From assembly GCA_902767725.1 (NCBI GenBank), contig CACXIM010000009.1:1-40974 (forward strand): a stretch of 40,974 bases of DNA, read 5' to 3'. The notes beneath the pieces are model-generated. The model saw nothing but the letters and a program-made list of their open reading frames with translations, did no database searches and was not told the origin of the DNA. Shown piece after piece: positions 2,853 to 28,475 of this stretch. This DNA is from an uncultured Bacteroidia bacterium (lineage in GTDB: Bacteria; Bacteroidota; Bacteroidia; Bacteroidales; F082). Position 1 is the stretch's first letter, and the number at the start of each line of letters is the position of its first letter. Both the position numbers and the translations under genes were made by a program.

Positions 2853-5800
2853 ATGAAACACCTTGGAATCATCATCGGAATCATCGCCCTTGTTACCATC
2901 GGCGTATTGGCTTTTGCCATGCCAAACAAGAACCCTGGCAACCCCGACAACCCCAAAACCCCGAAAAACAACTACGAGAATATGTGGAAAAACGTAAAGG
3001 AAAACCTTGAAAAAAACCTGCCGGAATCGGCAGAAAAAGAACTGAATGCCATTGAGGAGAAGGCCACAAAGGACAAAAACCAAACCCAGTTGCTGAAGGT
3101 GTGGCTCTATCGGCAAAATATCATGCGTATTACCGTGGAAGAAGACCCAGAGCAAGCCTTCATCCAATACGTCGAGACGAAAATTGGGCAGTTGGATGCC
3201 GTGCACGATGCTTTGCTGCATGAGGAAATCGCCAAGGCGTATGCCGAGTATTTGGATGGCAACGAATGGCGCATCAACGATAACCTGCCCATCGACGGTG
3301 ATATTTCCAAGGTGGAGATGAAATATTGGGACAAGGAGAGTTTCAAAACACGCATCAACCAGCATTATGATGAGGCTTTGAAACCCGTCGAGGCACTGAA
3401 AAACGCCAAAACGGAAGATTTCATGGTGCTGTTTGAAAACAAGAACAACAACGAGGAAAACATTGAATACGAGGCTTCCTTATTTGAGTTTATGTTCCAC
3501 CGTGTGGCGAAATACTATCAGGAACAGGCCGATGCCGACGATGTGGAGGGCGAGACCGATGCCTGGTGGTTGCCCGCCAAGGACTTTGTGAAGGCTGATC
3601 TCGGAACTGCTGATAACCCACTTACGAAATGCCTGAAGATCTATCAAGACCTCATTGCCTTTAACCTCAAGAGTTCGAATGAGGATGTGCTGATTTACAA
3701 CGACTTCAAGCGCTTTGGCTTCGTCAATGGCATACTCGACAAGGATGCACAATACCAAGCCGCCATGGAGGATCTGAAGGCACAGCACAAGGACAACCCG
3801 CTTTCCGCCGAAATCACCTCCCTGATTGCGCGCAGCATGATGAACCAATACGAGAGCAACAGCAGCGACAGTGCCTATTTCGACCATTACAAAAAGGCCA
3901 AGGCGATGTGCGAGGAAGCTATTGCCAAGTTCCCGAAGTCAAAGGGCGCCAAAAACTGCCAAAACCTCATCGAGCGCATTGAGGAGCCGCAAATCGACAT
4001 CACGCTGAACTCGGTGCAACTGCCCAACGAGGCCATCCCCGCCGTGCTGGAATATAAGAACACGACCGCACCTTACTATAGGATTGTGAAGGTGAGCGAG
4101 AAGGAATTGAAGAAACTGAACGAATTGTATGGGGAAGACCGCTTTAAGGAGTTGTCCAAAATGAAAGCCTTGCTGGAGCAAGAACTCACATTGGCAGCCG
4201 AGACCGACTACCGCAACCATAGCACCCTGATTGCCTTGCCCGCTTTGGAGTGTGGCTTCTATTTCCTCATGGCCACCACCGAGAAAGGCATCAAGAGCCG
4301 TGACAAGACATTGGTGCTCCAGTTCCAAGTCTCGAGTCTCGGATTCATCACCGACGAAAAGGATCACAAGATGACCTTGGTCGTCGTGGATCGCAAAACG
4401 GGGAAAACCGTGGAAGGTGTCACCGTGGAACTCTACAGACGTGAGTTCGACTATAAGGACCGCCAGTACAAGACCATTATTCTTGAAACACCCAAGACTG
4501 ACAGCAATGGCAGGGTGCAACTTTCGAAAAAGACAAACAATTCGTTTTGCATCAACCTGCGCAAGGGCGACGATAACCTGCTGTCGGAACAAAGCTTCTA
4601 TCTCAGTGAGAAGTACGGCAACAGAGCTCAAGACATCACCACCAAGCTCTTCACCGACCGCGCCATCTATCGTCCCGGACAGACCGTCTATTTCCAAGGC
4701 ATTACAACGCGCCGCCAAGGCGAAGACTTGACCCTTGTGAACAATTACTCGGAGACGGTTTCCTTCCGTGATGCCAACTGGCAAGAGATTACCTCGGCCA
4801 ACTTTAGTACCGACGAATACGGCTCGTTCAGCGGGTCTTTCGTTATCCCCACCGATAGGCTGAACGGCGTGTTCCACCTCAACGCCAAGCAAGGTAGCGT
4901 CAACATCCGCGTGGAGGAATACAAACGCCCTACCTTCGAGGTTACGTTTGAGCGTCCGAAAGAGCAATACAAGCTCAACCAAGAGGTGACAGTGCATGGC
5001 GACGTGAAGGCATACGCCGGTTTCGGCTTGGATGATGTGGAATACAGCTACCGCGTCATCCGCAAGACTTCCTTCCCTTGGCGTTGCTGGTGGTGGTGGT
5101 ACCCGACCGTCGAGGATGAACAAATCACCTACGGCAAGGCGTGCACCGATGAGAACGGCAAGTTCGCCGTCACCTTCCGTCTGAAGCCTTCCAAGACCAT
5201 CGCGCCTGAGAAACAGCCAATGTTCACCTACGAAATCGAGGTGACCGCAACGAGCAAACAGGGCGAGACCCACGCCGACACCTACAGCATCCGCGCCGGC
5301 TACAATGAAATCGCGATTGGCACGGACCTGCCTTCAAAGGTCGAGAAATCGGACATCGGCAAGTACCAAATCACCGTGAGCAACCTCAGCTGGCAGCCTG
5401 CCAAGAGCCGCATATCGCGCAAGATATACCGCTATGAGGATGCCGCCAAGATCGACTACTTTAAAGCGATGGGACTTTCCGCAAAGCTGGATAGGCAGAT
5501 GTTGAGTGATGCTGAATTGGAGAGGTTGTTCCCTATGTATAGTTTTTATGATAAAAACCAGGTCCCTGAGCCTGTCGAAGGGCCGGCCCACTTGGTTGAC
5601 GAATCTGAAATAATGGTGGATGACAAAGCGAAGTTCTACGAAGGCAAGGCTTTGGAACCTGGAAGATACGTCGTGGACCTAACGAGTCTCGATGACCCCT
5701 TGGCGAAGACTTCACAACAGTTCACCGTGTTTGAAAACGACTCCAAGAAGCTGCCTGTCACCACGATGGAATGGAAACACCTTGACAAATCCACCGCCCA

Positions 5801-6875
5801 TCCCGGCGACGAAATCCATTTCAGCATCGGCAGTTCGGCCAAGGACGTGGACATCTGGGTGCAGTTGCTCCATGGAGACGAAGTCCGTCTGGACAAGAAA
5901 ATCAACCTCAGCAACGGCGTGCAGACCTTATCTTATAAGGTGACCGAAAGCGACCGTGGTGGCCTTGCTTGGCGTTATGCCTTCGTGAAGGAAAACAGCT
6001 ACAATACCGACCGTTTGAGTGTTTCCGTGCCTTTTGACAACTATGACTTGGATGTGAAACTCGCCACCATGCGCGACAAGCTCAGCCCCGGTGCCGAAGA
6101 GACATGGGAAGTGACCGTCCGCGACTACAAAGACAAGCCCTTGGAAGCTGCCTTACTCGCTGGTATGTACGATGCCTCGTTGGATGAATTTGAACGCAAT
6201 TATTGGGGATTCAGCATGTCTCCTTCGGGTGTGTATGGAAATAGCTTTGGCACAGACGACCATGGTTTCACCTCTTCTAACACGGGTTTGGAATATTTCT
6301 ATTTTGCCGAACTCTTCAACTTCAGCCTGCCCTCGGATGCGCCCTTCTTCGATTTTGGATATGGTTTCGGCAGAAGAATGTATAAAGGCTTGGGAGCCGG
6401 TAGGGTGATGTACGACGAAATGGTGATGGAAGAAGCCATTATGCCTATGTCAAGTCCAGTGTTGTCAAAGAAATCCGTTGAGGCTAATGGAGCCATCGAA
6501 ACGGCAGATGCTGAAGAAATGGTTGAAATAAAGAAACAAGAAAGCGTAGCTCCTAAGCTGGATAAAGGGGAAGAGAAAAAAGAGCCCGCCGAGCCTACTC
6601 TCCGTGAGAACTTCAACGAGACGGCCTTCTTCTTCCCGCAGCTGCGCACCAACACCGACGGCAGCGCGACCTTCAGCTTCACCATGCCCGACGCCCTCAC
6701 GCGCTGGCGCCTGATGCTGATGGCCTACACCAAGGACCGCAAGACGGGCAGCAAGGACTGCCGCGCTATATGTACGACAACGACGAGCTGTGGTTTGTCG
6801 CCAACGTCATCAACACGGGCGACGAACCGGTCACGCCCAAGGCGAAACTCGAGATTTTTGATGCGGGAACGATGA
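2853..6875 (+). CDS. Alpha-2-macroglobulin family protein, N-terminal fragment (frameshifted)
   Basis: Large envelope protein of the bacterial alpha-2-macroglobulin/MG2 family, thought to trap or inhibit foreign proteases. The start is MKHLGIIIGIIALV at 2853: it begins a hydrophobic export or anchor segment, whereas the open frame upstream (from 2451) has no coding character and covers the promoter and repeats. Residues about 30-400 are helical and repeat-like, then come the macroglobulin beta domains; TDRAIYRPGQTVYFQG (about residue 610) is the MG2 signature. A Met-, Gly- and Tyr-rich stretch and a Glu/Lys-rich linker follow, then NETAFFFPQLRTNTDG and MPDALTRWRLMLMAYT. The family match stops near 6755; the last 40 or so residues are out-of-frame sequence. 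The continuation is the next entry in another frame. A 24-bp palindromic repeat at 5561-5584 adds VPEPVEGP. Confidence 0.85.
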   Translation: MKHLGIIIGIIALVTIGVLAFAMPNKNPGNPDNPKTPKNNYENMWKNVKENLEKNLPESAEKELNAIEEKATKDKNQTQLLKVWLYRQNIMRITVEEDPEQAFIQYVETKIGQLDAVHDALLHEEIAKAYAEYLDGNEWRINDNLPIDGDISKVEMKYWDKESFKTRINQHYDEALKPVEALKNAKTEDFMVLFENKNNNEENIEYEASLFEFMFHRVAKYYQEQADADDVEGETDAWWLPAKDFVKADLGTADNPLTKCLKIYQDLIAFNLKSSNEDVLIYNDFKRFGFVNGILDKDAQYQAAMEDLKAQHKDNPLSAEITSLIARSMMNQYESNSSDSAYFDHYKKAKAMCEEAIAKFPKSKGAKNCQNLIERIEEPQIDITLNSVQLPNEAIPAVLEYKNTTAPYYRIVKVSEKELKKLNELYGEDRFKELSKMKALLEQELTLAAETDYRNHSTLIALPALECGFYFLMATTEKGIKSRDKTLVLQFQVSSLGFITDEKDHKMTLVVVDRKTGKTVEGVTVELYRREFDYKDRQYKTIILETPKTDSNGRVQLSKKTNNSFCINLRKGDDNLLSEQSFYLSEKYGNRAQDITTKLFTDRAIYRPGQTVYFQGITTRRQGEDLTLVNNYSETVSFRDANWQEITSANFSTDEYGSFSGSFVIPTDRLNGVFHLNAKQGSVNIRVEEYKRPTFEVTFERPKEQYKLNQEVTVHGDVKAYAGFGLDDVEYSYRVIRKTSFPWRCWWWWYPTVEDEQITYGKACTDENGKFAVTFRLKPSKTIAPEKQPMFTYEIEVTATSKQGETHADTYSIRAGYNEIAIGTDLPSKVEKSDIGKYQITVSNLSWQPAKSRISRKIYRYEDAAKIDYFKAMGLSAKLDRQMLSDAELERLFPMYSFYDKNQVPEPVEGPAHLVDESEIMVDDKAKFYEGKALEPGRYVVDLTSLDDPLAKTSQQFTVFENDSKKLPVTTMEWKHLDKSTAHPGDEIHFSIGSSAKDVDIWVQLLHGDEVRLDKKINLSNGVQTLSYKVTESDRGGLAWRYAFVKENSYNTDRLSVSVPFDNYDLDVKLATMRDKLSPGAEETWEVTVRDYKDKPLEAALLAGMYDASLDEFERNYWGFSMSPSGVYGNSFGTDDHGFTSSNTGLEYFYFAELFNFSLPSDAPFFDFGYGFGRRMYKGLGAGRVMYDEMVMEEAIMPMSSPVLSKKSVEANGAIETADAEEMVEIKKQESVAPKLDKGEEKKEPAEPTLRENFNETAFFFPQLRTNTDGSATFSFTMPDALTRWRLMLMAYTKDRKTGSKDCRAICTTTTSCGLSPTSSTRATNRSRPRRNSRFLMRER
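5561..5584. repeat. 24-bp palindromic coding repeat, copy 1
   Basis: Starts GGTCCCTGAGCCTGTCGAAG and ends GGCC. It is read in frame as VPEPVEGP within the macroglobulin protein. Same unit as at 8602-8625 and, in the opposite orientation, at 6902-6940 and 28239-28262. Confidence 0.85.
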
Positions 6876-8968
6876 AGCCTGTCAACATGATTGTTATGGA
6901 CGGCCCTTCGACCCTTCGACAGGCTCAGGGCTCAGGGGCCTATACCATCCCGATGGAAACCATACAACCCGGTCGCAGCAAGGAAGTGCGCTGGAAGGTG
7001 AAAGGACAATATGATTTGAGCCTGTTGGCCTTCCGCTTCACGGCCTACGCGGGTGAGTTCAGCGATGCCGAGCAGCACCTCTTGCCTGTGTTGAGCAGCG
7101 AAATCTTCATGACACAAACCCTGCCCATCACCGTGAAAGCCGAGACCGAAAAGACCTTCGACGTTCCCCTTGGCAGCCTCATTGCGGGCGAAGACCCGCA
7201 ATCTCTGCCAGGGGACAGCCATAATCACGAGCGCGACTACAGCCTGACCTTGAACTTCAGCACCAACCCCGTGTGGTACGCCGTTCAGGCCTTGCCTTAC
7301 CTGGCTAACGTCAAGACCGACCGCGCCGAGACCGCCTTCTATGTGTTCTACGCCAACACGCTCTCGTCCTACATCGCCGACAATATTCCTAACCTCTTGA
7401 ACTACATCAAGAAATGGCAGATTGAGACGCCCGATGCCCTGCTCTCGCAACTCGAGAAGGACCAAGATCTGAAGGCCATCATGCTGCAAGAGACGCCGTG
7501 GGTGCTTGAGGCCAAGAGCGAGACCGAGCAACGCAACCGCATCGCCACCCTCTTCGAGGTGAATACGATTCGCAACCAGCAGACCAATGCCTTGAGACTC
7601 ATCAAGGACAAGCAGAAATACAATGGCGGCTGGCCTTGGATGGACGGTATGCCCGAGAGTCCCTACATCAGCACCTACATTTTGAGCGGCTTCGGCAAGT
7701 TGCAAAAGATGGGTGCGTGGAGCTCGCTGAGCAAGACCGACCAAAACACAGCCCAAAGCATCTGTGACAAGGCCGTGCGCTACCTTGAATATGAGGTGGC
7801 CGAGACCTACCGTAACATGAAACGCTACAGCAAAGGCAAAGACTGGCCCATCGGCTCCAGTACCTTGAACGAGCTCTATGCCTTGAGTTTTTTCAAGGAA
7901 CAAAACTCCGACAAAGACTTTGCTAAGGCCAAGGACTACTACCTCAAGAGCCTCGACAAGGAGTGGACCTCGTTCAACTTTAACCAACGCTCAATGGGTG
8001 CTTTGGTGCTCTACCGCAACGGCAACGAAAAGACCGCGAAACTGATGATACAGTCGTTCAAGGAGTGTGCCCAAAAGAACGAGCAAATCGGCATGTACTG
8101 GCCGAAGAAGTACTTCAGCTTTGAGTCGCACATCGCCACCCATGCCAACATTATGGCAGCCTTCGCCGAAATCGACCAAGACCAGGAGATGATTGACGAA
8201 CTGCGTGTGTGGCTACTCACCCAGAAGCAGACCACGATGTGGGAGAACTCCGCTTCGACCGCCGATGCCATCTACGCTCTGCTCATGCGTGGCAGCGACT
8301 GGTTTGATGAAGGCAAGGAAGTCACCCTGCGCTTCAGCAACACGCCCATCAGCACCGAGGGCGGCGTGGCTGGCACGGGCTTCATCCAACGCCGCTGGAA
8401 CGCCAGCGAGGTGACCCAAGACATGCGCCAACTCACCGTCAACAACCCGACCCCCCACTTGGTGTGGGGCGGCCTGTTCCGCCAGTACTTCGTTCCGATC
8501 GACGAGGTCAAGAGTGACGAATCCGGCTTCACCATCAAGCGCGAGCTGTTTGTGGAGACGGTGACCGACAAGGGCAAGAAGTTGGTTCCCGTTGGATATA
8601 AGGTCCCTGAGCCCGTCGAAGGGCCGACATTACAAGTAGGCGACAAACTCACTGTGAAGATCACTTTCACCAGCCAGCAAGACATGAGTTTCGTCTTCGT
8701 CAAGGACCTCCGTGCTGCAGGTTTCGAGCCGATTGAGCAGATTTCGCGCTACGAGTACAACGACCAGATGTGTTACTACCAGAGCAACACCGACACCGAC
8801 ATGGAGTTCTTCATCGAGTTCCTGCCCAAGGGCACGCACCAGCTGGAGTACAGCATGTTCGTCACCAAGGAAGGCTACCTCAACAATGGCTATGCCTTGA
8901 TCCAGTGCCAGTATGCACCTGAGTTCAGTGCCTACTCTGATGGCATGCGTGTGAAGGTAGGGGAGTAA
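6770..8968 (+). CDS. Alpha-2-macroglobulin family protein, C-terminal fragment (frameshifted)
   Basis: Continuation of the preceding gene. It opens with PRYMYDNDELWFVANVINTG, the macroglobulin-domain stretch that in intact relatives directly follows the RWRLMLMAYT segment. The helical thioester-type domain follows: NPVWYAVQALPYL (about residue 165), then KYNGGWPWMDGMPESPYIST (about 285), and the receptor-like C-terminal region to the TAA at 8966-8968. The junction with the upstream fragment lacks the usual 15 to 20 linking residues, and the frame differs, so a deletion of 3n+1 bases is likely; the 7-mer CAAGGAC occurs at both 6731 and 6752. Where family members with a thioester carry CxEQ, this protein reads RAET. 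The ATG at 6770 is probably not a natural start. Two palindromic repeats (6902-6940 and 8602-8625) are read through in frame. Confidence 0.8.
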   Translation: MYDNDELWFVANVINTGDEPVTPKAKLEIFDAGTMKPVNMIVMDGPSTLRQAQGSGAYTIPMETIQPGRSKEVRWKVKGQYDLSLLAFRFTAYAGEFSDAEQHLLPVLSSEIFMTQTLPITVKAETEKTFDVPLGSLIAGEDPQSLPGDSHNHERDYSLTLNFSTNPVWYAVQALPYLANVKTDRAETAFYVFYANTLSSYIADNIPNLLNYIKKWQIETPDALLSQLEKDQDLKAIMLQETPWVLEAKSETEQRNRIATLFEVNTIRNQQTNALRLIKDKQKYNGGWPWMDGMPESPYISTYILSGFGKLQKMGAWSSLSKTDQNTAQSICDKAVRYLEYEVAETYRNMKRYSKGKDWPIGSSTLNELYALSFFKEQNSDKDFAKAKDYYLKSLDKEWTSFNFNQRSMGALVLYRNGNEKTAKLMIQSFKECAQKNEQIGMYWPKKYFSFESHIATHANIMAAFAEIDQDQEMIDELRVWLLTQKQTTMWENSASTADAIYALLMRGSDWFDEGKEVTLRFSNTPISTEGGVAGTGFIQRRWNASEVTQDMRQLTVNNPTPHLVWGGLFRQYFVPIDEVKSDESGFTIKRELFVETVTDKGKKLVPVGYKVPEPVEGPTLQVGDKLTVKITFTSQQDMSFVFVKDLRAAGFEPIEQISRYEYNDQMCYYQSNTDTDMEFFIEFLPKGTHQLEYSMFVTKEGYLNNGYALIQCQYAPEFSAYSDGMRVKVGE
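6902..6940. repeat. Nested palindromic coding repeat, copy 2
   Basis: 39 bp. GGCCCTTCGA is followed by a complete core, CCCTTCGACAGGCTCAGGG, and then CTCAGGGGCC, which looks like one copy of the 24-bp repeat inserted into another. It is read in frame as GPSTLRQAQGSGA. Confidence 0.8.
8602..8625. repeat. 24-bp palindromic coding repeat, copy 3
   Basis: Differs from copy 1 at one base (CCCGTCGAAG in place of CCTGTCGAAG) and is read in frame as VPEPVEGP. Confidence 0.85.
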
Positions 8969-9215
8969 GGGGTGTGTCGGAGACACACTCTCCTATTTAC
9001 CCCATACGTAGTGTGGGGTAGTGAGATGTGGGATATCGCTCATCCACTGCGTGTCGGAGACACGCTACATCATCAGAGTGAGACTGATGTAGCGTGCCTT
9101 CAGCACGCGATGTACATAGATCATCATCGTCATAGCACCCCATACGCAGTGTGTGGGTAGTGAGATGTGGGCTATCGCCCATCCAACTCACAGAGAAGCC
9201 CTACTATAGACCAAT
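8969..9215. repeat. Direct and inverted repeats in a convergent gap
   Basis: No gene is seen between the two convergent stops (8968 and 9320). A unit of about 48 bp beginning ACCCCATACG and running through GTAGTGAGATGTGGG occurs at about 8998-9045 and again at 9137-9184. Between them CACGCTACATCATCAG (9061-9076) can pair with CTGATGTAGCGTG (9084-9096). A short hairpin, GTGTGTC with the ACACAC tract, directly follows the macroglobulin stop and may help end transcription. Confidence 0.65.
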
Positions 9216-9308
9216 AGCCCTCATTGCGGAGGAACATCCGCAATCTCCTAAGCGAAAGGGTGTCCCTAACGCGTAGGAGATCGCGGGTCCTTGCCCGCGA
9301 TGAGGGCT
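9216..9308. repeat. Three-hairpin repeat, copy B
   Basis: The ends AGCCCTCAT and ATGAGGGCT pair. Hairpin 1 is TTGCGG with CCGCAA, the central hairpin is CTCCTAAGCG with CGCGTAGGAG, and hairpin 3 is ATCGCGGG with CCCGCGAT. It ends next to the stop codon of the endonuclease-like gene. Confidence 0.75.
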
Positions 9309-9319
9309 TTGGGATGGGT

Positions 9320-10618
9320 TTAGTCGACCACCAGCTTCACCGTCTGTCCCCAACCCCCATCATGCTTGATGCGCAGAAAATAAAACCCCGTAGTAATGTC
9401 ATGAAGCGCCAACTCAAACTGCTGTGAGCCCTCGCTAAGCTCGGCCGTATAGCGTTGCAGCAACTGCCCTTGCAGCGTGTACAGCTCCAATTGCACTTGT
9501 CCTTGCGTAGGGTTGAAGAAGCTCACGACAGCCCTATCGGAGGCAGGGTTGGGCGCCACAGTGGCATAGAGGCTCTGTGCTTCAAGGTCTTCCACACCGA
9601 GATGCACATCCACTGCGATCTTCATCGTCACGGGGAGGTGGTCGGAGCCATCGAAGAGGGCCTCCGCGACCTCATCGGGCACGGCCGTGTTGTTGCCTTG
9701 ATTCACGCTCATGTTAAAATGACGTCCGTCGTTGCCCACAGCATGATAAGAGCCTTGCACATAGCGCAAATGGTTGTAGCTGAAAGCGATCTCGTCGGCC
9801 ATCAAGATGAAGTCGAAGCGGTCGTCGAGGCCGCCCGAGGAGAAGCATTCATCGGAATAGTTTCTTGTGGATTGCGTATGGAAGGCGGCAAACTGATTGT
9901 TGTTGTTCCATTCGCCCACGCCGCCCACCAAGGCTGCAGGGTCCATGAAGCAGATCTCGGGGTTGCTATAGGTCTGGGTGAGCAGGCGGTAAGCAGGTTC
10001 GCTGGCGCCATACATGTTGAAGTCGCCCATGATCAGGGCGTTGTCATGGGGATAATGCTGGTTGACGTAGTCCATGGCGACCTGCATCAAGGCTCTCCGG
10101 CTCGACTCGTAGCCCATGCCTGCTTTGGGGTGCGCCACGATGCAGACCAACTTGATGGTGTCGCCTGCCGACAGACTCTTGGTCTTCAGGTAAAGCTCGT
10201 AGACATCCGTGTCGCGTGGGTTGGTGCGTAAGGCGATGTGCTTGCTCAGCCCCAGTTTCTGCGCGTTGAAGAAGATATGGTTGATGATGTTACTGCTGGC
10301 GTAGTTGATGATGTTGTCCGACTGCCAGTAGTTGGCTCCGTTGATGTTGAGGTTATGTCGTAGAAAATCGTTTTGCAGGGCGGAAGTGGCGCCAAACTCG
10401 CACACGGTGAAGATGTCGGGCTTCACATAATTGACAAGAGTACGGATGCATTCGTCCTTACGTTGTGTGTTGTTGTTGGTTTCGTAGCAGTCGGCAAAGC
10501 CGCTTTGGTAGTTGCCATAATACAGCAGGTTGTATTGCATCACGGTGAGGGTGTCTTGGGCCATGGAAGGCCATGCCATACAAATCGTGATGAGAAGTAG
10601 ACAGTATTTGCGCTTCAT
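9320..10618 (-). CDS. Secreted endonuclease/exonuclease/phosphatase-fold protein with T9SS tail
   Basis: 432 residues. The signal peptide (about 1-20, ending WPSMAQ) is followed by TLTVMQYNLLYYGN, the opening strand of the EEP fold. DIFTVCEFG carries the metal-binding Glu, ALIMGDFNMYGASEP the catalytic Asp-x-Asn, and GSDHLPV the active-site Asp-His near residue 330. The C-terminal 85 residues, beginning VAPNPASDRAVV and ending FYFLRIKHDGG...KLVVD, form a type A T9SS sorting domain, so the enzyme is probably exported and surface-attached or released. Substrate (nucleic acid or phosphoester) cannot be told. It has its own -7 box at 10639-10646 and diverges from the lipoprotein pair. Confidence 0.88.
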   Translation of the reverse strand: MKRKYCLLLITICMAWPSMAQDTLTVMQYNLLYYGNYQSGFADCYETNNNTQRKDECIRTLVNYVKPDIFTVCEFGATSALQNDFLRHNLNINGANYWQSDNIINYASSNIINHIFFNAQKLGLSKHIALRTNPRDTDVYELYLKTKSLSAGDTIKLVCIVAHPKAGMGYESSRRALMQVAMDYVNQHYPHDNALIMGDFNMYGASEPAYRLLTQTYSNPEICFMDPAALVGGVGEWNNNNQFAAFHTQSTRNYSDECFSSGGLDDRFDFILMADEIAFSYNHLRYVQGSYHAVGNDGRHFNMSVNQGNNTAVPDEVAEALFDGSDHLPVTMKIAVDVHLGVEDLEAQSLYATVAPNPASDRAVVSFFNPTQGQVQLELYTLQGQLLQRYTAELSEGSQQFELALHDITTGFYFLRIKHDGGWGQTVKLVVD

Positions 10619-10638
10619 TTTCAGGTTATTTTGTGCAG

Positions 10639-10646
10639 CAAAGATA
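10639..10646 (-). promoter_or_regulatory. -7 box for the T9SS-tailed endonuclease-like gene
   Basis: The minus strand reads TATCTTTG about 20 bases before the ATG at 10618. Confidence 0.6.
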
Positions 10647-10676
10647 GAAAATTTGGCGTGATATTTGAATTAATCC

Positions 10677-10684
10677 TATTTTTG
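10677..10684 (+). promoter_or_regulatory. -7 box for the lipoprotein pair
   Basis: TATTTTTG lies 14 bases before the ATG at 10699. A TTTG at 10652-10655 is at a plausible -33 distance. It lies back to back with the minus-strand promoter at 10639. Confidence 0.6.
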
Positions 10685-10698
10685 CAACGTTTTTAGTT

Positions 10699-11184
10699 AT
10701 GGAAAAAAAGTTTCAAAGCGGTTGTTGTGCCTTGGCGGTAGTGCTCTTGATGGCGATGAGTTCCTGCCATAAAGAAACTGAGCAGTATGCCCATTGCTCG
10801 CTATTGGGTCATTGGGGCTGTGAGAAGTATGTCAGCTGTCGCACGGATAGTACAGGCTACGAGAAATGGGAGACCTTCGAATATGAAGTTGGCTCGGGTC
10901 ACGGCTACGAGGTATATTTTTATGCCGATGGCTCAGGCAAGCTCTTGCTTAACGACAGTCCCGCTTTAATCAAAAAGTTCAATTGTGACTTTGACTACGA
11001 CTCAATAAGTCATACGCTTACTATATACAACACCTCTTGGATCATCTCGATGTTTTCGGATGCGACCAGCGCTGACATGACCATAGAGGAGGTGACGGAC
11101 AACCACGTTCAGGCATCGTGGACTAATTATTTCTCGGAGCCCGTACCCTTTTTTGAACGCTTTTACTTGAAACGAATCGAATAA
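10699..11184 (+). CDS. Small lipoprotein, lipocalin-like, first of a pair
   Basis: 161 residues. The N-terminus has a hydrophobic stretch ending LMAMSSC, a lipobox with Cys at about residue 23, so it is probably an anchored lipoprotein. LLGHWGCEKYV near residue 35 and the C-terminal FYLKRIE resemble bacterial lipocalin-like beta-barrel proteins, where GxW opens the barrel. The next gene has the same layout (GTWGVEKI and YLKRI), so the two look like diverged tandem duplicates in one transcription unit with only 19 bases between them. No specific ligand or role can be assigned. Confidence 0.75.
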   Translation: MEKKFQSGCCALAVVLLMAMSSCHKETEQYAHCSLLGHWGCEKYVSCRTDSTGYEKWETFEYEVGSGHGYEVYFYADGSGKLLLNDSPALIKKFNCDFDYDSISHTLTIYNTSWIISMFSDATSADMTIEEVTDNHVQASWTNYFSEPVPFFERFYLKRIE

Positions 11185-11203
11185 CACTTAAATAATAGAA
11201 AAA

Positions 11204-11782
11204 ATGAAAAGATTAGCTTTATTGACAACATTGGCCATTGCGGCAATGCTGTTCACTTCTTGCAAGAAGGTGGACTACAAGAATTTTATTGGCACTTGGG
11301 GTGTCGAAAAGATTGAGTACTACAACATCGACTACGCAGGCAATCCTATCGCTGCCTCGATGGATTCACATTCGTTTGATATTAACGATGCTGACAATAG
11401 TATTCAGTTGGTTTTCAAGGAAGATAAAACTGGTGTGATGCGCGACAGCGCCATCGACACCCTCTGGATTGAAAACGAAGAGACAGGGAATTATGACTAT
11501 ATCTATTGCCCCGATACCGTGATGGTGTATTCATTCACTTATTCCTATGATAATACTGACAAGTCATTGTACATGAACATAGACTATGGTACAGAAATGC
11601 GTACCTTCAGAATGGCTATCTACGACATGACAGATAACTCGTTCATCTATGAAAACGAGTATTTTAAGGATTATATGGAGAAAGCTTATCTGAAGCGCAT
11701 CAGTAAATCAGCTTCCAAATCGGGAAGCCGACAAGTTGTGAATCACCCGCATAAGCCGGGTTCGTTCCTTGGCGGAAGATAA
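11204..11782 (+). CDS. Small lipoprotein, lipocalin-like, second of a pair
   Basis: 192 residues with lipobox AAMLFTSC (Cys about residue 20) followed by KKVDYKNFIGTWGVEKIEYY. The body is rich in Asp and Tyr, as expected for alternating beta strands, and includes a typical KEDKTGVM turn. The homologous region ends at AYLKRISK. After it, about 24 extra residues (SASKSGSRQVVNHPHKPGSF and onward) are basic and unlike the preceding protein, so the original stop may have been lost. It probably shares the promoter at 10677. It ends 14 bases before a strong bidirectional terminator. Function unknown. Confidence 0.75.
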   Translation: MKRLALLTTLAIAAMLFTSCKKVDYKNFIGTWGVEKIEYYNIDYAGNPIAASMDSHSFDINDADNSIQLVFKEDKTGVMRDSAIDTLWIENEETGNYDYIYCPDTVMVYSFTYSYDNTDKSLYMNIDYGTEMRTFRMAIYDMTDNSFIYENEYFKDYMEKAYLKRISKSASKSGSRQVVNHPHKPGSFLGGR

Positions 11783-11795
11783 GAATTAAAGGCTG

Positions 11796-11849
11796 AAAAA
11801 AAATGCCGTGCATAGATTCTCGAGGGAATGACATGCACGGCATTTTTTT
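11796..11849. terminator. Bidirectional intrinsic terminator
   Basis: AAAATGCCGTGCAT pairs with ATGCACGGCATTTT, with an A-run before and a T-run after, between the convergent lipoprotein and rRNA methyltransferase genes. It can end transcription from both sides. Confidence 0.85.
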
Positions 11850-13053: not shown

Positions 13054-13071
13054 TGCATTTCGATTTTGTTG

Positions 13072-18162: not shown

Positions 18163-18179
18163 GATGATTTTGTGGATTA

Positions 18180-18187: not shown

Positions 18188-18292
18188 TAAGTTTTTCTTG
18201 AAGCTCGATAGGGGAAGAAGAGGTTTTTTTCAAAAAAAAATCTTTTCATTCAAAAAGCATGGATAAAAACGAATTGAAAGACTTTTTTTCCG

Positions 18293-18300
18293 TATATTTG
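18293..18300 (+). promoter_or_regulatory. -7 box for the gldH-export cluster
   Basis: TATATTTG matches TAnnTTTG. It lies inside the longer possible gldH frame and so supports the ATG at 18322 as the start. Confidence 0.55.
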
Positions 18301-18321
18301 CACGGTTTTTATGCACTAAAA

Positions 18322-18783: not shown

Positions 18784-18796
18784 TTGAAATATAAAT

Positions 18797-19603: not shown

Positions 19604-19648
19604 TTAAAACTAAAAAGGTAGAGTTGTTTTAAAAAGAAAGATAACGTT

Positions 19649-22135: not shown

Positions 22136-22148
22136 AGAAACATGTGCG

Positions 22149-22679
22149 ATGGACAATCGTGAAGAAAGGCATTGGCATGCCCTTTATGTCAGGTCACGGT
22201 CTGAGAAGAAAGTGCTGTCGCAACTTGAGGAGAAAGGTTTTACGGTTTATTTGCCGTTAGTTACTCAGGTTAAGCAATGGAGTGATCGGAAAAAGAAAGT
22301 AGAGGAGCCTTTGTTCAAATCGTATGTATTTGTCTATTCCAACGATAAGGAGTACATCCCGATTTTGAATTTGTATGGTGTGATCAAGTTTGTCTGCTTT
22401 GAGAAGAAAGCTGTCGTCGTCCCCGAAAACCAGATTTTGGCCATCCAAAAGTTTGTCAGCGATTACGATAAAGGTGAGGAATTTAAAATGCTGAACAACG
22501 AGGAACTGAAGGAAGGACAGCGGGTGCGCATCATCAATGGCCCGATGAAAGGCTTGACAGGCAGGCTCGAAACCATCTGCAACAAGCGCCATCTGATTGT
22601 CTATATTGACGTGGTAGGACAGTGCATCCCCGTTCACATACCCAGGGCAAAAGTGGAGCCTTGCGAAGAAAAGGGCTGA
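22149..22679 (+). CDS. NusG-like transcription antiterminator, UpxY type
   Basis: 176 residues from the ATG at 22149, 13 bases after the kinase stop; the longer frame from 21960 only overlaps the kinase tail and is not used. The NGN domain is RHWHALYVRSRSEKKVLSQL through VYLPLVTQVKQWSDRKKKVE and FKSYVFVYSNDKEY; the C-terminal KOW domain is GQRVRIINGPMKGLTGRLE (about 125-143). In Bacteroides, UpxY proteins ride with RNA polymerase through capsule operons and prevent early termination. Here it lies after wza- and wzc-like genes and no glycosyltransferase gene is in view, so its target operon is not shown by the window. Confidence 0.88.
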   Translation: MDNREERHWHALYVRSRSEKKVLSQLEEKGFTVYLPLVTQVKQWSDRKKKVEEPLFKSYVFVYSNDKEYIPILNLYGVIKFVCFEKKAVVVPENQILAIQKFVSDYDKGEEFKMLNNEELKEGQRVRIINGPMKGLTGRLETICNKRHLIVYIDVVGQCIPVHIPRAKVEPCEEKG

Positions 22680-22706
22680 AAAAGTTCTGCATTTAAAGAT
22701 AATTTC

Positions 22707-22714
22707 TATCTTTG
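22707..22714 (+). promoter_or_regulatory. -7 box for the coiled-coil membrane protein
   Basis: TATCTTTG lies 38 bases before the ATG at 22753. It indicates that this gene is transcribed separately from the upstream NusG-like gene. Confidence 0.6.
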
Positions 22715-22752
22715 CAGCATAATACTACGAATCGAAACAAAACAAATAAGTC

Positions 22753-23667
22753 ATGGATTCAGAGAGAAAGAAAAAATCAAATCAACCTTTATGGCTTTAT
22801 GCCCTATTGGCTTTGTTGGCCATAGTTTTGGCGGTTGTCTGTGTCTTGTGGTCTGGAGACAAAGGCAAAGTAAAGAATCTTGAAGCCGAAAAAGAGATGC
22901 AACGCCTCGACTTTCAGGCCGAAGTGGACAGTCTGATGAAGGTGCACAACAAACTGAAAGATAGTTATGGCGAACTCAGTCAGGAATTGGCTGAGAAAGA
23001 CAGCATTATCCAAGCCGATGCCATCGAAATCAAGCGCCTTCTTGACTCGCAATGGGACTACAACCGTATCAAGAAGAAAGTCACGCAATTGCAGGAGATT
23101 TCGCAGCGTTATGTGCGCCAGATGGACTCACTCTATACCGTTAACCGCGAATTGGTGGCCGAAAACGAGCGCATCCGTGAGGAATACCAAAACGAACGCC
23201 GTCAGAACACCAACCTCACCCGTCAGAAGGAAGAGCTGACCAACAAGGTGAACCAAGCTGCTACGATGAGAATCTCCAACTACAGCGCTAAAGCTGTGCG
23301 TTTCAAGGGTAGCGGCAAAGAATCGGACACCGATAGGGCCAGCCGTGCCGAACGCATCAGAATCGACTTTACCGTGGCCGCCAACGAGCTCATCCAGCCC
23401 GGAACGAAGTTGTTCTATGTGCGTATCGCCGACCCCAGGCGTGCCATCATCACCAAGGGCTCGGGCGACGAGTATTCCTTCAAGGCGAATGGCGAGACCT
23501 TGCAATTCACCGAGAAGGTGAGGGTGAACTACGACGGCAAGGAAACTGCCGTGCGCGCCTACTATACCAAGCCTGACGCATACGAGCTGATGCCTGGCAC
23601 CTATTTCATCGATGTCTACGAGGAAGGTGGCAAGGTCATTGGACAAACCACTGTAGATTTGAAATAA
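22753..23667 (+). CDS. Unrecognised membrane-anchored coiled-coil protein
   Basis: 304 residues, not matched to a family I know. After a basic start (MDSERKKKSNQ) one hydrophobic helix, PLWLYALLALLAIVLAVVCV (about 12-32), anchors it, probably with the rest outside the cytoplasm. Residues about 40-170 are heptad-rich, Glu/Lys/Gln-heavy coiled coil. The C-terminal 130 residues look like a beta domain (SNYSAKAVRFKGSGK, then LIQPGTKLFYVRIADPRRA and YELMPGTYFIDVYEEGGKV). It follows the export cluster with its own -7 box and ends at a perfect palindromic terminator. A structural or scaffold role at the envelope is possible but only a guess. Confidence 0.75.
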   Translation: MDSERKKKSNQPLWLYALLALLAIVLAVVCVLWSGDKGKVKNLEAEKEMQRLDFQAEVDSLMKVHNKLKDSYGELSQELAEKDSIIQADAIEIKRLLDSQWDYNRIKKKVTQLQEISQRYVRQMDSLYTVNRELVAENERIREEYQNERRQNTNLTRQKEELTNKVNQAATMRISNYSAKAVRFKGSGKESDTDRASRAERIRIDFTVAANELIQPGTKLFYVRIADPRRAIITKGSGDEYSFKANGETLQFTEKVRVNYDGKETAVRAYYTKPDAYELMPGTYFIDVYEEGGKVIGQTTVDLK

Positions 23668-23692
23668 AGGCAAAACATTTCGTGAATTTTTT

Positions 23693-23726
23693 GTAGAGAC
23701 GCAAAATTTTGCGTCTCTACTTTTTT
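23693..23726. terminator. Perfect 28-bp palindromic terminator
   Basis: GTAGAGACGCAAAA (23693-23706) is followed at once by its exact complement TTTTGCGTCTCTAC (23707-23720) and a T-run, between the convergent coiled-coil gene and recO. It works as a terminator for the plus-strand gene and has the form of a dispersed palindromic repeat. Confidence 0.8.
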
Positions 23727-24450
23727 ATTCCAAAACCGTCTTCAGCACCTCGTGCGAATGGAAATCATTCATCACGGGGGCATGGAGCCGCATGAACACG
23801 ATGAGCCCGTCGAGTAAGGCTCGGCGCTGGTTCACATTAAGAGGTAAGTGGCAGGTTTCATCGATGCCTGCGTTGAGCAGTTTCGAGAGTAGTTGTGCGT
23901 CCTCTGCATCGAAATAGTAGGGGTGCAAGGGATAGTCATGGGCAAACGAGCCTTCCATCATGTCGAAGCAATAGCCTGCTTCATGGTTGGCTTTGGGATA
24001 GAAGCCCAGGTGTCGCGTCAGCTCTAAGGTGAAAAACAATGGGAAGTTGGCATAGTCCTGATGGACCAAGTCGAGCCATAGCATCGATCGTTCGATGAAG
24101 TCGTAAAGCGGCTCGTTTTGTTCTTGTTCCGTGATGGTTTTTGAAAGCAACTCACTGACGTACATCAGAATGGCACTTTTGTTCATCACGAAAGGGATGC
24201 TTTGATAAACCGTGGCGAGTTGCACGTCTTTCATGTAGCCCAAGCTGCTTCGGTTGGTTTTGCCAACTTCCACATAATTAATAAGGTGTAGGTTTTGGAA
24301 TAAGGCCACGCGACTCTTCGAGTTGTGGTTGAAGGCGCCTTTCACCATATAGGAACGCAGTCCGAGGCTTCGGGTGAACACCTTCACGATGAGGCTGGTG
24401 TCGCCGTAGCGGATGGATTGCAGGACTATGCCTTGGATTGTGTCGTCCAT
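23725..24450 (-). CDS. recO: DNA repair protein RecO
   Basis: Recombination mediator that helps load RecA at gaps together with RecF/RecR, and anneals single strands. 241 residues from the ATG at 24450. The longer frame from 24564 would lie inside the upstream gene. The N-terminal OB fold is MDDTIQGIVLQSIRYGDTSL through KVFTRSLGLRSYMVKGAF, followed by the helical C-terminal domain (LSKTITEQEQNEPLYDFI, then LELTRHLGFYPKAN). Its ATG overlaps the stop of porZ by one base (TGATG), so the two are translationally coupled. This family lacks simple catalytic motifs, and the call rests on the N-terminal pattern and size. Confidence 0.88.
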   Translation of the reverse strand: MDDTIQGIVLQSIRYGDTSLIVKVFTRSLGLRSYMVKGAFNHNSKSRVALFQNLHLINYVEVGKTNRSSLGYMKDVQLATVYQSIPFVMNKSAILMYVSELLSKTITEQEQNEPLYDFIERSMLWLDLVHQDYANFPLFFTLELTRHLGFYPKANHEAGYCFDMMEGSFAHDYPLHPYYFDAEDAQLLSKLLNAGIDETCHLPLNVNQRRALLDGLIVFMRLHAPVMNDFHSHEVLKTVLE

Positions 24451-26771
24451 CAGTTCATGAGCAGGATCTTGGTGGCAAATTTGTCGGTGCCTTGCTTGGT
24501 GCTGACGAAAATGAGGTAGACGCCGGGCTCTACCTTCTCGCCATTGATGGTGGTGCAGTCCCACACGGCTTGGCCACCTTCGGAAATCAGCTGGGTGACA
24601 AAGGTGCCATCTACTGTGGTGATTCTTACCAATGAATTGGAAACCAAACCTTTTATGCCGACAAATCCGTGATACCCAAGTCTTACGGGGTTAGGATAGG
24701 CGATCACGTCTGTGACGATGGGATCGGGAGTGGCATACTCGCCCCGATAAGAGATGACTCCACTGGCTGTGCCGAAAAACACCTCGCCGCTCTTGTCGAC
24801 GGCCATGGTGGTGACGGCATTGTCGAGTAAAGGACTGTTGTTGGTGTTGAAGTAATGGATTTCCTTGGGTTTGCCATCGAACGACATGAGGTAGACACCC
24901 GATTCGAGGCCAAACCAAATCTGGTTGACGCCTTCCATGGCGGCCATCGAAAGCACATTGGAGCCGTCGAAGAGATAGTCGTATTGGTCGGTGCCGTCGT
25001 TGCGTGGCACGCGGACTTGCGTGGCGTCGAAATTAGAGCCGTTGAAAATCTTTCTTGAGTCGTCAAACAAGCAAGGACCTTTGTCGGTGCCAGCCCAAAC
25101 ATTTCCCTTGTTGTCGACGGTGATGCAGTTGACCGAACCGAGGAGGTTGCCGCTACCTGCTGCCGAGTTGAGGTTGACGGCCTGGTCGTCGGCTGGAATG
25201 TCGAGGGTGCCGTTGTCGTTGAAGACGATGACTTCGCCGTTGCGGCGCGTGATCCACTTGTAGTCGTTGTGGTCGATGAAGAGCGGTCCTATGTCGATGG
25301 CACTGAGGCTACCTCCCAAGTTGTAGGAATGCCAAGTGCCGTTGGGTTCCATCACGGAGAGTAGATCGGGGGCGCCAGTGTTTGCCACCCAGAGGTTGCC
25401 TTTGCTGTCGAAGGCTAAGCCGCTGATGTTGATGAGACTGGGGTCACTAGCCCAAGGTTCAAGAGAACTGTTTTCGGCGTTGTATACTTCCACTAGTTCA
25501 TCACCCTTGAACTTCAGTATGCCGTTGCCCCAGGTGCCCACGTAAGTGACTGAGGGATCGTTGGGGTTGGTAGCGGTACACACGAAGTCGGTATAGTCGT
25601 TGAAGTTGGGTAGGGTGGTGTTGTTGAGGATGGTCCATAAGCCATCGAAGCGGGCTACGCCTTCGCGCATATAGCGTTTGCTCCAGTTGGAGGCATGGCC
25701 TCCTGTGGCAATCCAGACTTGGTCGCCGCAGGCCTTGAGCTCAAAGACGTTTTTCGAGGCGGTGCCATTAGGTTTCACATCCATGTTGTTCCAGCCGTCG
25801 GAGGTCTTGATGAGGCCGCGTTTGTTGTCGCCAATCCAATAGTTGCCACTGTTGTCCAAAGCCACAGCCCAAGGTTCGATGTTGCCGCCAGGCGAATGGA
25901 TGGAATGCTGGGGATTGAGGTTGAGGTCGTACACCGAAAGATTATATCTGTTGGATATCAGTAGACGGTCACTGCAGGCACGCATCTGTCTCTTCTCGCT
26001 GACGTTCTCCTTGTCGAAATAGCCCCAATGGCTGCCATCGTAAACAAAGAGTGTGTCGGCATTAAAGCCACCGTTATAGTTGAGCAGCAACTTGCCGCCG
26101 AACACCTCCATCTCGGTATAGGCTAAATGGGGATGGATGAGACTGTTGTCGAAGTGCCATGCGGCGTAATTGGCCAGGTTTTGTGCGTCAAGTGAGGCAT
26201 AATACATGCCGTCGTCAGTGCAAGCATAGAGGCGTCCGTTGTATTTGACCACATCGGTGACATTGACCATATCTCCTTGGTTTCCAATGTAATATGTGTC
26301 TTTCACTTCTTCTTTTTTCAAGTCGAAAACCACGATGCCGAAGCCACAAGCCGCGTAGGCCAAGTCGCCATCGAAATAGACATGGTTGATGCTTTTGTTG
26401 CCCACGATGTTCTTGTCCTTGATGTCGCTCATGTTGTGGATGTTGCCCTCGTAGTCGATGAGGTCGACATTAGCGTTGGTATAAGCCACAAAGAGCTTGC
26501 GTTGGCTCTCGTTGTAGCCGATGGTGCTGATGCCGATATCCGACAAACCATTGATTTTGTTGAGGATATGGATGGAGTTGTCTTGCGTGTCGTAGTAAAA
26601 CAGCTCATACTGCGTGGCTGCATAAATCTTGTAGCCAACAGGTTCCACGCCAATCACTTTTTGATAGGGCAGGTGAGTACGCCAGTTGCCGATGGAAACG
26701 CCGTCTTGGGCAATGGCGAAGGTGGAGATGAGCCATGCTGCTATGAGGAGGGTAGATTTCAGTTTGTTCAT
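24450..26771 (-). CDS. porZ: T9SS-associated beta-propeller protein PorZ
   Basis: 773 residues. In Porphyromonas PorZ is a surface part of the type IX secretion attachment complex that delivers anionic LPS to the sortase PorU. Signal peptide about 1-21 (ending TFAIAQ), then the opening DGVSIGNWRTHLPYQKVIGV, typical of PorZ. Two seven-bladed-type propeller regions follow with blades such as GYKIYAATQYELFYYD, GRLYACTDDGMYYASL, GLAFDSKGNLWVANTG, TVDNKGNVWAGTDKGPCLFD and VDKSGEVFFGTASGVISYRG. The last 85 residues (VIAYPNPVRLGYHGFVGIKG to FATKILLMN) are the sorting-type C-terminal domain, as PorZ retains one. It reads into recO with a TGATG overlap. No clear -7 box was seen upstream. Confidence 0.85.
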   Translation of the reverse strand: MNKLKSTLLIAAWLISTFAIAQDGVSIGNWRTHLPYQKVIGVEPVGYKIYAATQYELFYYDTQDNSIHILNKINGLSDIGISTIGYNESQRKLFVAYTNANVDLIDYEGNIHNMSDIKDKNIVGNKSINHVYFDGDLAYAACGFGIVVFDLKKEEVKDTYYIGNQGDMVNVTDVVKYNGRLYACTDDGMYYASLDAQNLANYAAWHFDNSLIHPHLAYTEMEVFGGKLLLNYNGGFNADTLFVYDGSHWGYFDKENVSEKRQMRACSDRLLISNRYNLSVYDLNLNPQHSIHSPGGNIEPWAVALDNSGNYWIGDNKRGLIKTSDGWNNMDVKPNGTASKNVFELKACGDQVWIATGGHASNWSKRYMREGVARFDGLWTILNNTTLPNFNDYTDFVCTATNPNDPSVTYVGTWGNGILKFKGDELVEVYNAENSSLEPWASDPSLINISGLAFDSKGNLWVANTGAPDLLSVMEPNGTWHSYNLGGSLSAIDIGPLFIDHNDYKWITRRNGEVIVFNDNGTLDIPADDQAVNLNSAAGSGNLLGSVNCITVDNKGNVWAGTDKGPCLFDDSRKIFNGSNFDATQVRVPRNDGTDQYDYLFDGSNVLSMAAMEGVNQIWFGLESGVYLMSFDGKPKEIHYFNTNNSPLLDNAVTTMAVDKSGEVFFGTASGVISYRGEYATPDPIVTDVIAYPNPVRLGYHGFVGIKGLVSNSLVRITTVDGTFVTQLISEGGQAVWDCTTINGEKVEPGVYLIFVSTKQGTDKFATKILLMN

Positions 26772-26840
26772 AGAGGTAAAATTTGGCTGTAAAATTACGA
26801 ATTTATAGGGAGATAACGCGATTTTCGCCGAAATGTTTTA

Positions 26841-26848
26841 TAACTTTG
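26841..26848 (+). promoter_or_regulatory. -7 box for the GLUG-like T9SS protein
   Basis: TAACTTTG matches TAnnTTTG and lies 19 bases before the ATG at 26868. Confidence 0.6.
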
Positions 26849-26867
26849 CACGGAAAAACCGAACAAA

Positions 26868-28475
26868 ATGAAGAAATCATTATTATCTATTTTAGCCATT
26901 GTGTTGACATTCAATCTGATGGCAACCAATGTTTGGGACGGCTCTTCGGAGCCTTGGACCCAAGGTGACGGCACGATGAACAATCCTTATCGTATTGAAA
27001 CGGCGGCCAATTTGGCCTATCTCGCTGAAAAAGTCAACGAAGGCTATCAGGCTGTAGGACAGGGTGTTTTCGAGGATGAGTATTTCCTGCTCACCGACGA
27101 CCTCGACCTGAACAACCTCAACTGGACGCCTATTGGCAATGTGAATTATAGCATGGATGGCTTCTATTTCGCAGGTCGTTTCGATGGTTGCTATCATCAG
27201 ATTGAGAATTTGAGGATAGAGACCAGTGCCGACTTGGTGGGCTTGTTTGCCGCTGTAGGTGGCGAAGACCATTATGTCAGGAATCTTTCGGTGAGCGGCA
27301 CGGTTATTTCCACGGGCATGGGTGCAGCAGGCGTGGTGGGCGGCATCGCTGGCGATGCTTTGGTCTATCGATGCAGTTTCTCGGGCTCAGTGAGTGTGAA
27401 CAACGGCGGCTCTTTTTGCGGTGCTGCCGGTGTGGTTGCTGGGGTGCAAAACGGTAGGGTGGTGCAATGTTCATCGTCAGCAACTGTGACGGTGACGAAT
27501 AGCAATTTCATGGGTGCCGCTGTGGCAAGTGGAGTGGTGTGCTTCGCGCGCGAAACGGCTTCTATCCAAAGTTGTTACAACACGGGCTCAGTGAATGCTA
27601 GTGCCGTGCTGATGGGTATTTCGGGCGGCATCTTGGCCGCCACGGTGGAGTCGGCGGAAGTCAATATCTATTCATGCTACAATGTCGGTCAAATCAGTGG
27701 CGGCGCGTCGGGCGGCATCTTCGGCATGGTCAGTCCCATTGACCCGACTAAGAGCGAAAATGCAATCAATGTCAGTAATTGTTTCTTCTTGACCTCTGCT
27801 GGCGGCAATAATGGCTATGGCACGGGCATGACAGCCGACGAGATGAAAACCGAGCAATTCAAGAACCAACTCGACCAAAGCGCACACGCTTTCGTGATGG
27901 ACAACGGCACCAACAACGGCTATCCCGTCCATAGTTTGGCGAGTTTTATCCTTTATGAAGCTTCCGACATCACCCCACATTCAGCCAAGCTGTCGGCATG
28001 GATTCACCAGGGCAACGACCATTTTGCGAGGGCCTATTTCAAGTACCTGAAATGGGAAGAAACCGAATGGATTGAGGTAGACGTGCCGACCGACGGCTAT
28101 GTGGAAGCTGTGCTTGAGGGCTTGGAGGAAGACACCTATTATGAGTATATGTTTGCCTGCGAGTTTGACGATGGCACTGGGATTGAGTCGGGACAACCAA
28201 GGGCGTTCCAAACGGGATATGATGCTGTTGATGAGGACGGCCCTTCGACGAGCTCAGGGACCTTGGTGGTTTATCCGAATCCTGTATCGGAAGTACTTTA
28301 TATTCAAGGTCTTAAGCCTATTGAGGTACAAGTTTTCAATGCTTTGGGTCAGTTGGTGAAGACCATCAAAAACGAGAGTCAAATCAACGTCAGCGATTGG
28401 TCAGAAGGAGTGTATGTGTTGCGCATCGCTACCGCTGACGGGAAGGTTTTTGAGAGAAGGGTATCTGTAAAGTAG
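26868..28475 (+). CDS. Secreted GLUG-like repeat protein with T9SS tail
   Basis: 535 residues. Signal peptide MKKSLLSILAIVLTFNLMAT, then WDGSSEPWTQGDGTMNNPYR and ETAANLAYLAEKVNEGY, the usual start of GLUG-type beta-helical surface proteins (WxG...G...PY.I.t...L.yLa..vN). Repeats such as GGIAGDALVYRCSFSGSVSV and IQSCYNTGSVNASA are GLUG-like rungs. A fibronectin-like stretch (about 365-430) precedes the sorting domain VVYPNPVSEVLYIQGL to KVFERRVSVK. The linker just before this domain is encoded by a 24-bp palindromic repeat (28239-28262) giving GPSTSSGT. Likely role: surface or secreted adhesion protein; no catalytic motif is visible. A strong hairpin follows the stop. Confidence 0.85.
   Translation: MKKSLLSILAIVLTFNLMATNVWDGSSEPWTQGDGTMNNPYRIETAANLAYLAEKVNEGYQAVGQGVFEDEYFLLTDDLDLNNLNWTPIGNVNYSMDGFYFAGRFDGCYHQIENLRIETSADLVGLFAAVGGEDHYVRNLSVSGTVISTGMGAAGVVGGIAGDALVYRCSFSGSVSVNNGGSFCGAAGVVAGVQNGRVVQCSSSATVTVTNSNFMGAAVASGVVCFARETASIQSCYNTGSVNASAVLMGISGGILAATVESAEVNIYSCYNVGQISGGASGGIFGMVSPIDPTKSENAINVSNCFFLTSAGGNNGYGTGMTADEMKTEQFKNQLDQSAHAFVMDNGTNNGYPVHSLASFILYEASDITPHSAKLSAWIHQGNDHFARAYFKYLKWEETEWIEVDVPTDGYVEAVLEGLEEDTYYEYMFACEFDDGTGIESGQPRAFQTGYDAVDEDGPSTSSGTLVVYPNPVSEVLYIQGLKPIEVQVFNALGQLVKTIKNESQINVSDWSEGVYVLRIATADGKVFERRVSVK
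28239..28262. repeat. 24-bp palindromic coding repeat, copy 4
   Basis: GGCCCTTCGACGAGCTCAGG followed by GACC is the reverse-orientation form with a small central variation. It is read in frame as GPSTSSGT in the linker before the T9SS domain. Confidence 0.8.

Follow-up and report, generated by a model that had tools for sequence, protein, structure and literature searches.

What is the short palindrome that lies four times inside protein genes on one contig of an uncultured Bacteroidia bacterium, and how could it have entered these genes without disturbing their frames? The window analysed here is a whole stretch of 40,974 nucleotides (contig CACXIM010000009.1; Bacteroidales, F082), and the element in question is a 24-nt unit. 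A first-pass annotation of the window had proposed a family of repeats inserted in frame and similar in concept to the Rickettsia palindromic elements (RPEs), and this proposal is supported both by the census of copies and by the empty and filled orthologous sites described below. The four repeat sites it listed are all present: the 19-bp core, CCCTTCGACAGGCTCAGGG, has four matches in the window at up to 3 mismatches, far above shuffled sequences (mean 0.02; 0/100 reach four). The element is probably a widespread, non-autonomous miniature palindromic repeat, independent of RAYT transposases, with a near-invariant 13-nt core, TTCGACARGCTCA, held in a base-paired, freely varying 3-bp stem.

The first copy (5562..5585, minus strand) and the third (8603..8626, minus strand) are both read as VPEPVEGP; as codons, the ends first given for these two sites were off by one. 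The second copy (6902..6940, plus strand), read as GPSTLRQAQGSGA, is a family member as had been assumed, and its 39 nt correspond to a concentric double copy, that is, one element within another. The fourth (28239..28262, plus strand) is read as GPSTSSGT and is located directly upstream of a Por secretion C-terminal sorting domain of the type IX secretion system (T9SS), in a 535-aa open reading frame (ORF; 26868..28475, plus strand) with Por_Secre_tail (PF18962) at aa 468-529. The first three sites do belong to a single gene, which is bacterial alpha-2-macroglobulin-like, but here it is broken into two ORFs that overlap and differ in frame, so site 1 is in the 5' part (2451..6875, plus strand, with MG2 and the start of the A2M domain) and sites 2 and 3 are in the 3' part (6770..8968, plus strand, with bMG10). 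Most of 30 aligned orthologues have a single open frame of about 2000 aa, and the split is either a real mutation or an assembly error. No solved structure was found for the 3' ORF by sequence search at E 0.001.

The host genome is a 3.06-Mb draft (79.6% complete, 5.8% contamination). It has long stretches in common with uncultured Bacteroidales bacterium RUG382 (92.8% over 2243 bp) and bacterium F082 (87.9% over 2967 bp), both of rumen origin; the host is accordingly a member of the Bacteroidales close to these two, and probably a gut bacterium. In it the 19-bp core occurs at 93 places with up to two mismatches (47 forward and 46 reverse), whereas the reversed pattern used as a control occurs at none. 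A copy number no higher than chance, which the annotation had named as an argument against a family, is therefore not what the genome holds.

Structure and arrangement of the unit

The unit consists of an invariant 13-nt core within a covarying 3-bp stem, CGG-xyz-TTCGACARGCTCA-z'y'x'-ACC, and the alignment of the host copies gives the consensus CGG-xyz-TTCGAC[A/G][A/G]GCTCA-z'y'x'-ACC(T). The palindrome is real but imperfect, with CCCT/AGGG and an outer GG/CC flanking an asymmetric 11-nt centre. Perfect stems are found in 98/107 copies, mostly of the CCC/GGG type (75 copies), followed by CGT/ACG (8), GCC/GGC (6), TGC/GCA (3) and others. When the CCC/GGG type is removed, perfect 3-bp stems are found in 23 of the 32 remaining host copies (shuffle mean 4.2, maximum 10) and in 31 of the 46 remaining copies in the named loci (mean 5.1, maximum 13); viral contigs without CC/GG give 23/29 (mean 4.5, maximum 10). 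In a 400-kb stretch of the relative G028, where copies were not selected by their stem, 15/15 have three-pair stems, mostly CCC/GGG (shuffle mean 8.5, maximum 13). The flanks vary with lineage: many Proteobacteria and Chloroflexi have CGAACG behind the stem, and Actinomycetota and Bacteroidota loci have ACC. No Rfam family matches the element at gathering score in the window and five named loci, where the sole match is a tRNA.

Most host copies are single. Nevertheless, 24 neighbouring pairs lie no more than 80 bp apart, 17 of them inverted, and the inverted pairs are spaced by 27-53 bp; in the genome G294, eight inverted pairs at 59-66 bp are present among the places listed. Among the 107 distinct cores of the fetched host loci, 15 fit a repeated-left-half pattern, which comprises the concentric copies and a one-sided duplication at L030. 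One 24-nt element is nested in another at L090, and an FtsZ homologue (L055, about 1456-1549) carries a run of copies past its folded domains, three of them minus copies at exact 24-nt steps (VSEPVES-KVPEPVEG). It was also observed that at L088, 1501-1540, an element has a duplicated 12-nt half (GACAGGCTCAGC) with the frame kept.

The arrangement also changes between relatives. A BLAST match in G028 was obtained for 26/108 host sites, and 17 site alignments were tried, several of them poor and one without the site. Copies are common to both genomes at L042, L046 and window position 8605, and at L008 and L022 the element has opposite orientations in the two. Opposite window position 28241, G028 has an eroded copy, and opposite L089 an element of different stem type nested at the centre; at L030 the host shows a 9-nt tandem duplication relative to G028.

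Insertion sites, reading frames and carrier genes

The macroglobulin-like gene was found in 86/99 genomes of the host genus in a search with its 3' ORF, and 30 of these 86, host included, were aligned. Site 1 is empty in 20 orthologues, and is occupied by a plus copy in five (one concentric), by a minus copy in three and by both orientations in two. At site 2, 15 are empty, 11 have a single copy (+24 nt), one has a single copy of +21 nt and three have the concentric double copy (+39 nt). For site 3 the counts are 21 empty, five with a minus copy (+24 nt) and four with a plus and a minus copy together. Thus the inserts are absent at many orthologous sites and present at others, and the aligned orthologues that lack them do not hold the same residues encoded by unrelated codons, an outcome which the annotation had regarded as contrary to its proposal. 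Opposite orientations within the same gap point to repeated insertion, in-place inversion, or both.

All 30 lengths at each of the three sites differ from the empty one by multiples of three. The net gains are 15, 18, 21, 24, 33, 39, 45, 48, 51, 54 or 57 nt, with 24 the commonest, and spread as strict 8-codon units, as first supposed, does not hold here. Because the gains vary from 15 to 57 nt and all are divisible by three, the fixed length of 24 nt is not sufficient to keep the frame and selection must act; we infer that selection, not the chemistry of insertion, sets the frame.

Across the host genome, 64/108 copies are intragenic: 62/106 by dicodon score, and two sites of the window, whose frames were read directly, entered manually with placeholder scores. 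The threshold score of 55 was set once the scores were known, and these same loci had served to train the dicodon model. The 50 ORF entries of this census may count one gene twice, and members of pairs and arrays are counted separately. The remaining 44/108 copies are outside confident genes; the claim that every site is coding is correct for the four window sites, but not for the genome. Five of the six reading frames of the element are open, and their use in the host is uneven: GPSTGSGT 24, VPEPVEGP 21, ALRQAQGP 12, RSLSLSKG 6, RPFDRLRD 1 and, for the frame that contains a stop, 0 (chi-square test against equal use of the five open frames, p = 6e-6). That many host copies persist in genes is probably due to these five open frames together with selection for lengths divisible by three.

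The host genes that carry the element include homologues of essential genes. FtsZ, DnaX, MurD and dTDP-glucose dehydratase pass the curated NCBIfam cut-off, and GyrB/ParE, MvaD, MurU, OppC and ketoacyl synthase miss it, so that the latter names indicate homology only. The FtsZ and DnaX inserts are downstream of the folded Pfam domains, in regions that we take to be linkers. Over 27 host proteins, 12/39 inserts fall within Pfam domains, compared with 19.3 expected by area (raw counts, domain ranges merged, L041 and L059 left out as they have no family). In the window protein, as in L040 and L050, an insert immediately precedes Por_Secre_tail, and in L086 one lies at the edge of this domain. Two other genomes were sampled: 16/24 copies score as intragenic in the relative G145 (20/26 listed sites taken) and 18/20 in Microbacterium sp. 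SA39 (20/41 listed sites taken). Of the 18 Microbacterium ORFs, ten were scanned, and all ten carry a Pfam domain in the frame of the element, among them ThrS, PheT, 6PGD and aromatic lyase families; in four (L431, L434, L438, L441) the insert is N-terminal to all domains and may be close to the start codon.

These data bear on the idea, already present in the annotation, that the repeat is a generator of protein linkers. In the adaptive form of this idea, the repeat would be retained because it supplies flexible linkers, and positive selection would favour it where domains join, for instance before T9SS sorting domains. The bias towards frames giving polar peptides, the depletion within host domains, the inserts next to Por_Secre_tail and the filling of the same codon gap in different species and orientations all agree with it. 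However, tolerance combined with purifying selection yields the same pattern, 44/108 copies are outside confident genes, the functions of the carrier genes are unrelated, and in Microbacterium the inserts are often within domains (5/10). Positive selection for linkers is therefore highly improbable as the explanation, and the inserts presumably bring no benefit to the host.

Two known systems share the coding character of the repeat. RPEs are about 150 bp long and comprise ten families in one genus, where they add in-frame peptide segments to many unrelated genes (PMC10969869). They resemble the present element in being palindromic repeats with many in-frame copies in unrelated genes and empty orthologous sites (the latter seen here in one gene), and differ from it, since here a 24-nt unit extends over many phyla. 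PARCELs (PMC2996958) are likewise palindromic coding repeats with a patchy distribution across distant clades. They consist, however, of variable 25-residue motifs in tandem, and the function of their ORFs is unknown; the element described here adds one segment of eight residues to conserved genes, and its DNA hardly varies.

Distribution across bacteria and the search for a mobiliser

The annotation treated the repeat as a family of its host, and this has to be corrected. The exact 19-mer was found in at least 117 contig stretches, and 50 genomes, taken from 80 listed loci, were tested. As these genomes were chosen for carrying the 19-mer, the presence of a match in 50/50 is so by construction; copy number is not biased in this way. 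The 13-mer core has 2-536 copies in the 50 named carrier genomes versus 0-3 for the reversed control. At least 12 copies per genome are reached in Pseudomonadota, 'Deltaproteobacteria', Chloroflexota, Actinomycetota, Bacteroidota, Spirochaetota (Treponema bryantii, 153), Acidobacteriota, Methylomirabilota, Fibrobacterota (191), KSB1, Peribacteraceae and Uhrbacteria, groups being assigned from record titles and many genomes being drafts; a Campylobacterota record has only two. The richest carriers are Plantibacter (536), Planctomonas (445) and Propionicimonas (255). Genomes with multiple copies of the core thus occur in at least 12 phylum-level groups, and the core is not host-specific.

Within these groups the distribution is patchy. 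Among 99 unselected Bacteroidota genomes, 53 have at least one copy, 46 have none, and 13 (host included), over nine families, have ten or more. In the family of the host, 58/149 genomes contain the 19-mer at up to one mismatch, and in its genus the genomes divide into those with none or few copies and those with up to 115. As a separate observation, 17 Caulobacter phage records of the phiCbK kind hold an exact 18-nt match to the query within a hypothetical protein; such phages may be a vehicle.

An identical 13-nt core over very distant phyla and a covarying stem could also be expected from a nucleic-acid signal, either a protein-binding site or an mRNA hairpin, conserved for its function and with the coding copies as by-products. 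Related to this, 32/40 of the plasmid records listed (66 in all) have no listed gene under the match, in a gene table that is incomplete. Nevertheless, a signal of this kind is very unlikely to account for the family, given its absence from 46/99 Bacteroidota genomes and its presence at ten or more copies in only 13/99, sites that are not conserved between species, the weak folding of the single unit and the lack of an Rfam match at gathering score.

The multi-copy short palindrome, the inverted pairs and the covarying stem recall repetitive extragenic palindromic (REP) sequences. GTAG REPs, REPINs and BIMEs are likewise short palindromes; a genome holds tens to hundreds of them, many arranged in inverted pairs, and their stems show compensatory changes (PMC3733652, PMC6006769). 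Accordingly, RAYT (Y1 HUH) transposases could move the element as they do ordinary REP/REPIN families, its hairpin being atypical. Atypical structures beside Bacteroidetes RAYTs are indeed described in PMC6006769, inverted pairs are found in the host, its genome has RAYT-model matches, and in its genus none of the 23 copy-rich genomes lacks a RAYT, compared with 15/35 of the copy-poor ones. On the other hand, there is no GTAG/GTGG tag 5' of the stem in the flank consensus (CGG...ACC in the host, a CGAACG tail in many others), intragenic copies make up over half of those examined in the three sampled genomes, and the core is nearly invariant over phyla. Moreover, no match to PF01797 (Y1 transposase) was found in 21/50 carriers, including the three richest, and when 15 PF01797-negative carriers were rechecked with NF047646, 14 gave no match and one a weak match below the cut-off.

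RAYT loci are not flanked by this core as a cognate repeat either, as only 3/30 hold it at up to one mismatch. The best-scoring RAYT of the host (C47:658-1137; locus L217 579-1379) has three copies of a different palindrome, TGGGCGAATTTGCAATTCGCCCA, in its flanks, and at up to three mismatches this palindrome has only two further places in the host genome. RAYT was therefore rejected as the general mobiliser: the RAYT-negative genomes contradict it unless it acts there from outside, and it is unlikely that the element is an ordinary REP family moved in this way. It may be mentioned that several RAYT-model matches (C89:2715-3434 of the host and similar ones) come in two pieces within one open frame, as if a segment were inserted mid-domain.

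The CGTC REPs (including RPE-4, RPE-6 and dRS3) were also considered. In PMC3733652 they are described from several phyla, with no dedicated transposase known and some intragenic copies, and with stems of 8-9 bp that begin with A-T pairs and enclose loops mostly of 4-5 nt. The spread over several phyla, the want of a known dedicated transposase and the intragenic copies are points of likeness with that description; membership was rejected on structure, since here the stem has 4 bp, the centre is asymmetric and of 11 nt, and a CGTC end is not required. Text searches for the core, shorter forms and the peptides returned no description of the repeat, judged by title, among the matches listed, figures and most subscription papers being outside their reach; searches about palindromes in several phyla or in-frame repeats led to the four works mentioned here. 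By eye, further intergenic repeat-like stretches are present in the window at 8969-9320 and 28660-29020 (for example around catcccgatgggatg), and these are unrelated to the 24-nt element.

Proposed origin and meaning

A RAYT-independent miniature repeat, which we consider the probable explanation, would work as follows. New copies of the element would arise at other sites, singly or in inverted pairs, through an enzyme that in many carriers would be other than a RAYT/Y1 transposase. Selection would then retain only inserts whose net change in length is a multiple of three, in frames giving short polar peptides (GPSTGSGT, VPEPVEGP, ALRQAQGP), and in the host lineage the retained inserts would lie more often outside than inside known domains. 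The RAYT-negative carriers and the different palindromes at the host RAYT point to a mobiliser outside known RAYTs or to a host replication process, and the concentric copies suggest a replication process that favours hairpin centres. Active mobility, with an enzyme acting in trans on single strands, would fit these data.

Several points weigh against this explanation. No transposition event was observed and no mobiliser was found; no transposase-like protein is present among the 15 largest of the 70 protein clusters beside the core (160 loci: 80 viral, 80 named), all 15 being viral and, by eye, phage structural genes or their antisense frames. The absence of RAYT comes from profile searches of partly draft genomes, and over 58 genomes of the host genus the number of RAYTs rises with that of the copies (Spearman 0.61). 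With the exception of G134, every copy-rich genome of this genus has a macroglobulin ORF at least 87% identical to that of the host, and the correlation may reflect one clade. No target duplication is legible by eye at the empty sites, where flanking codons are often altered too, and insertion before speciation followed by loss could look like repeated insertion. Twelve of the 39 host inserts do fall inside Pfam domains, as do those of L433, L436, L442, L443 and L444 in Microbacterium. Finally, the 25-mer folds as single-stranded DNA into a weak hairpin (-2.3 kcal/mol, z 0.26), no better than shuffles. A longer form from a Methylomicrobium locus folds strongly as single-stranded DNA (-14, z -5.0), and the evidence for a paired stem is its covariation and not the fold energy of the short form.

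A broader version can be put forward more tentatively, as something quite possible and still short of probable. All these copies would be one pan-bacterial repeat, unrelated to RAYT-REPs, whose 13-nt recognition core has been kept over at least 12 phylum-level groups while the stem drifted. Its movement would be due to an undiscovered, broadly distributed enzyme, possibly one acting on single-stranded DNA, or to a replication process of the host, and its 24-nt design with five open frames would lead to recurrent in-frame peptide insertions even in essential genes.

Should the family prove real and mobile, Bacteroidota, Actinomycetota, Spirochaetota and candidate phyla would have one short repeat in common, with a machinery that is absent from current lists. 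The peptides of the element could pass for true linkers in annotation and protein modelling. Besides, the copies would constitute a natural experiment, in which many 8-residue insertions of known orientation and frame, within homologues of essential proteins, could be used to map where folds tolerate extra residues.

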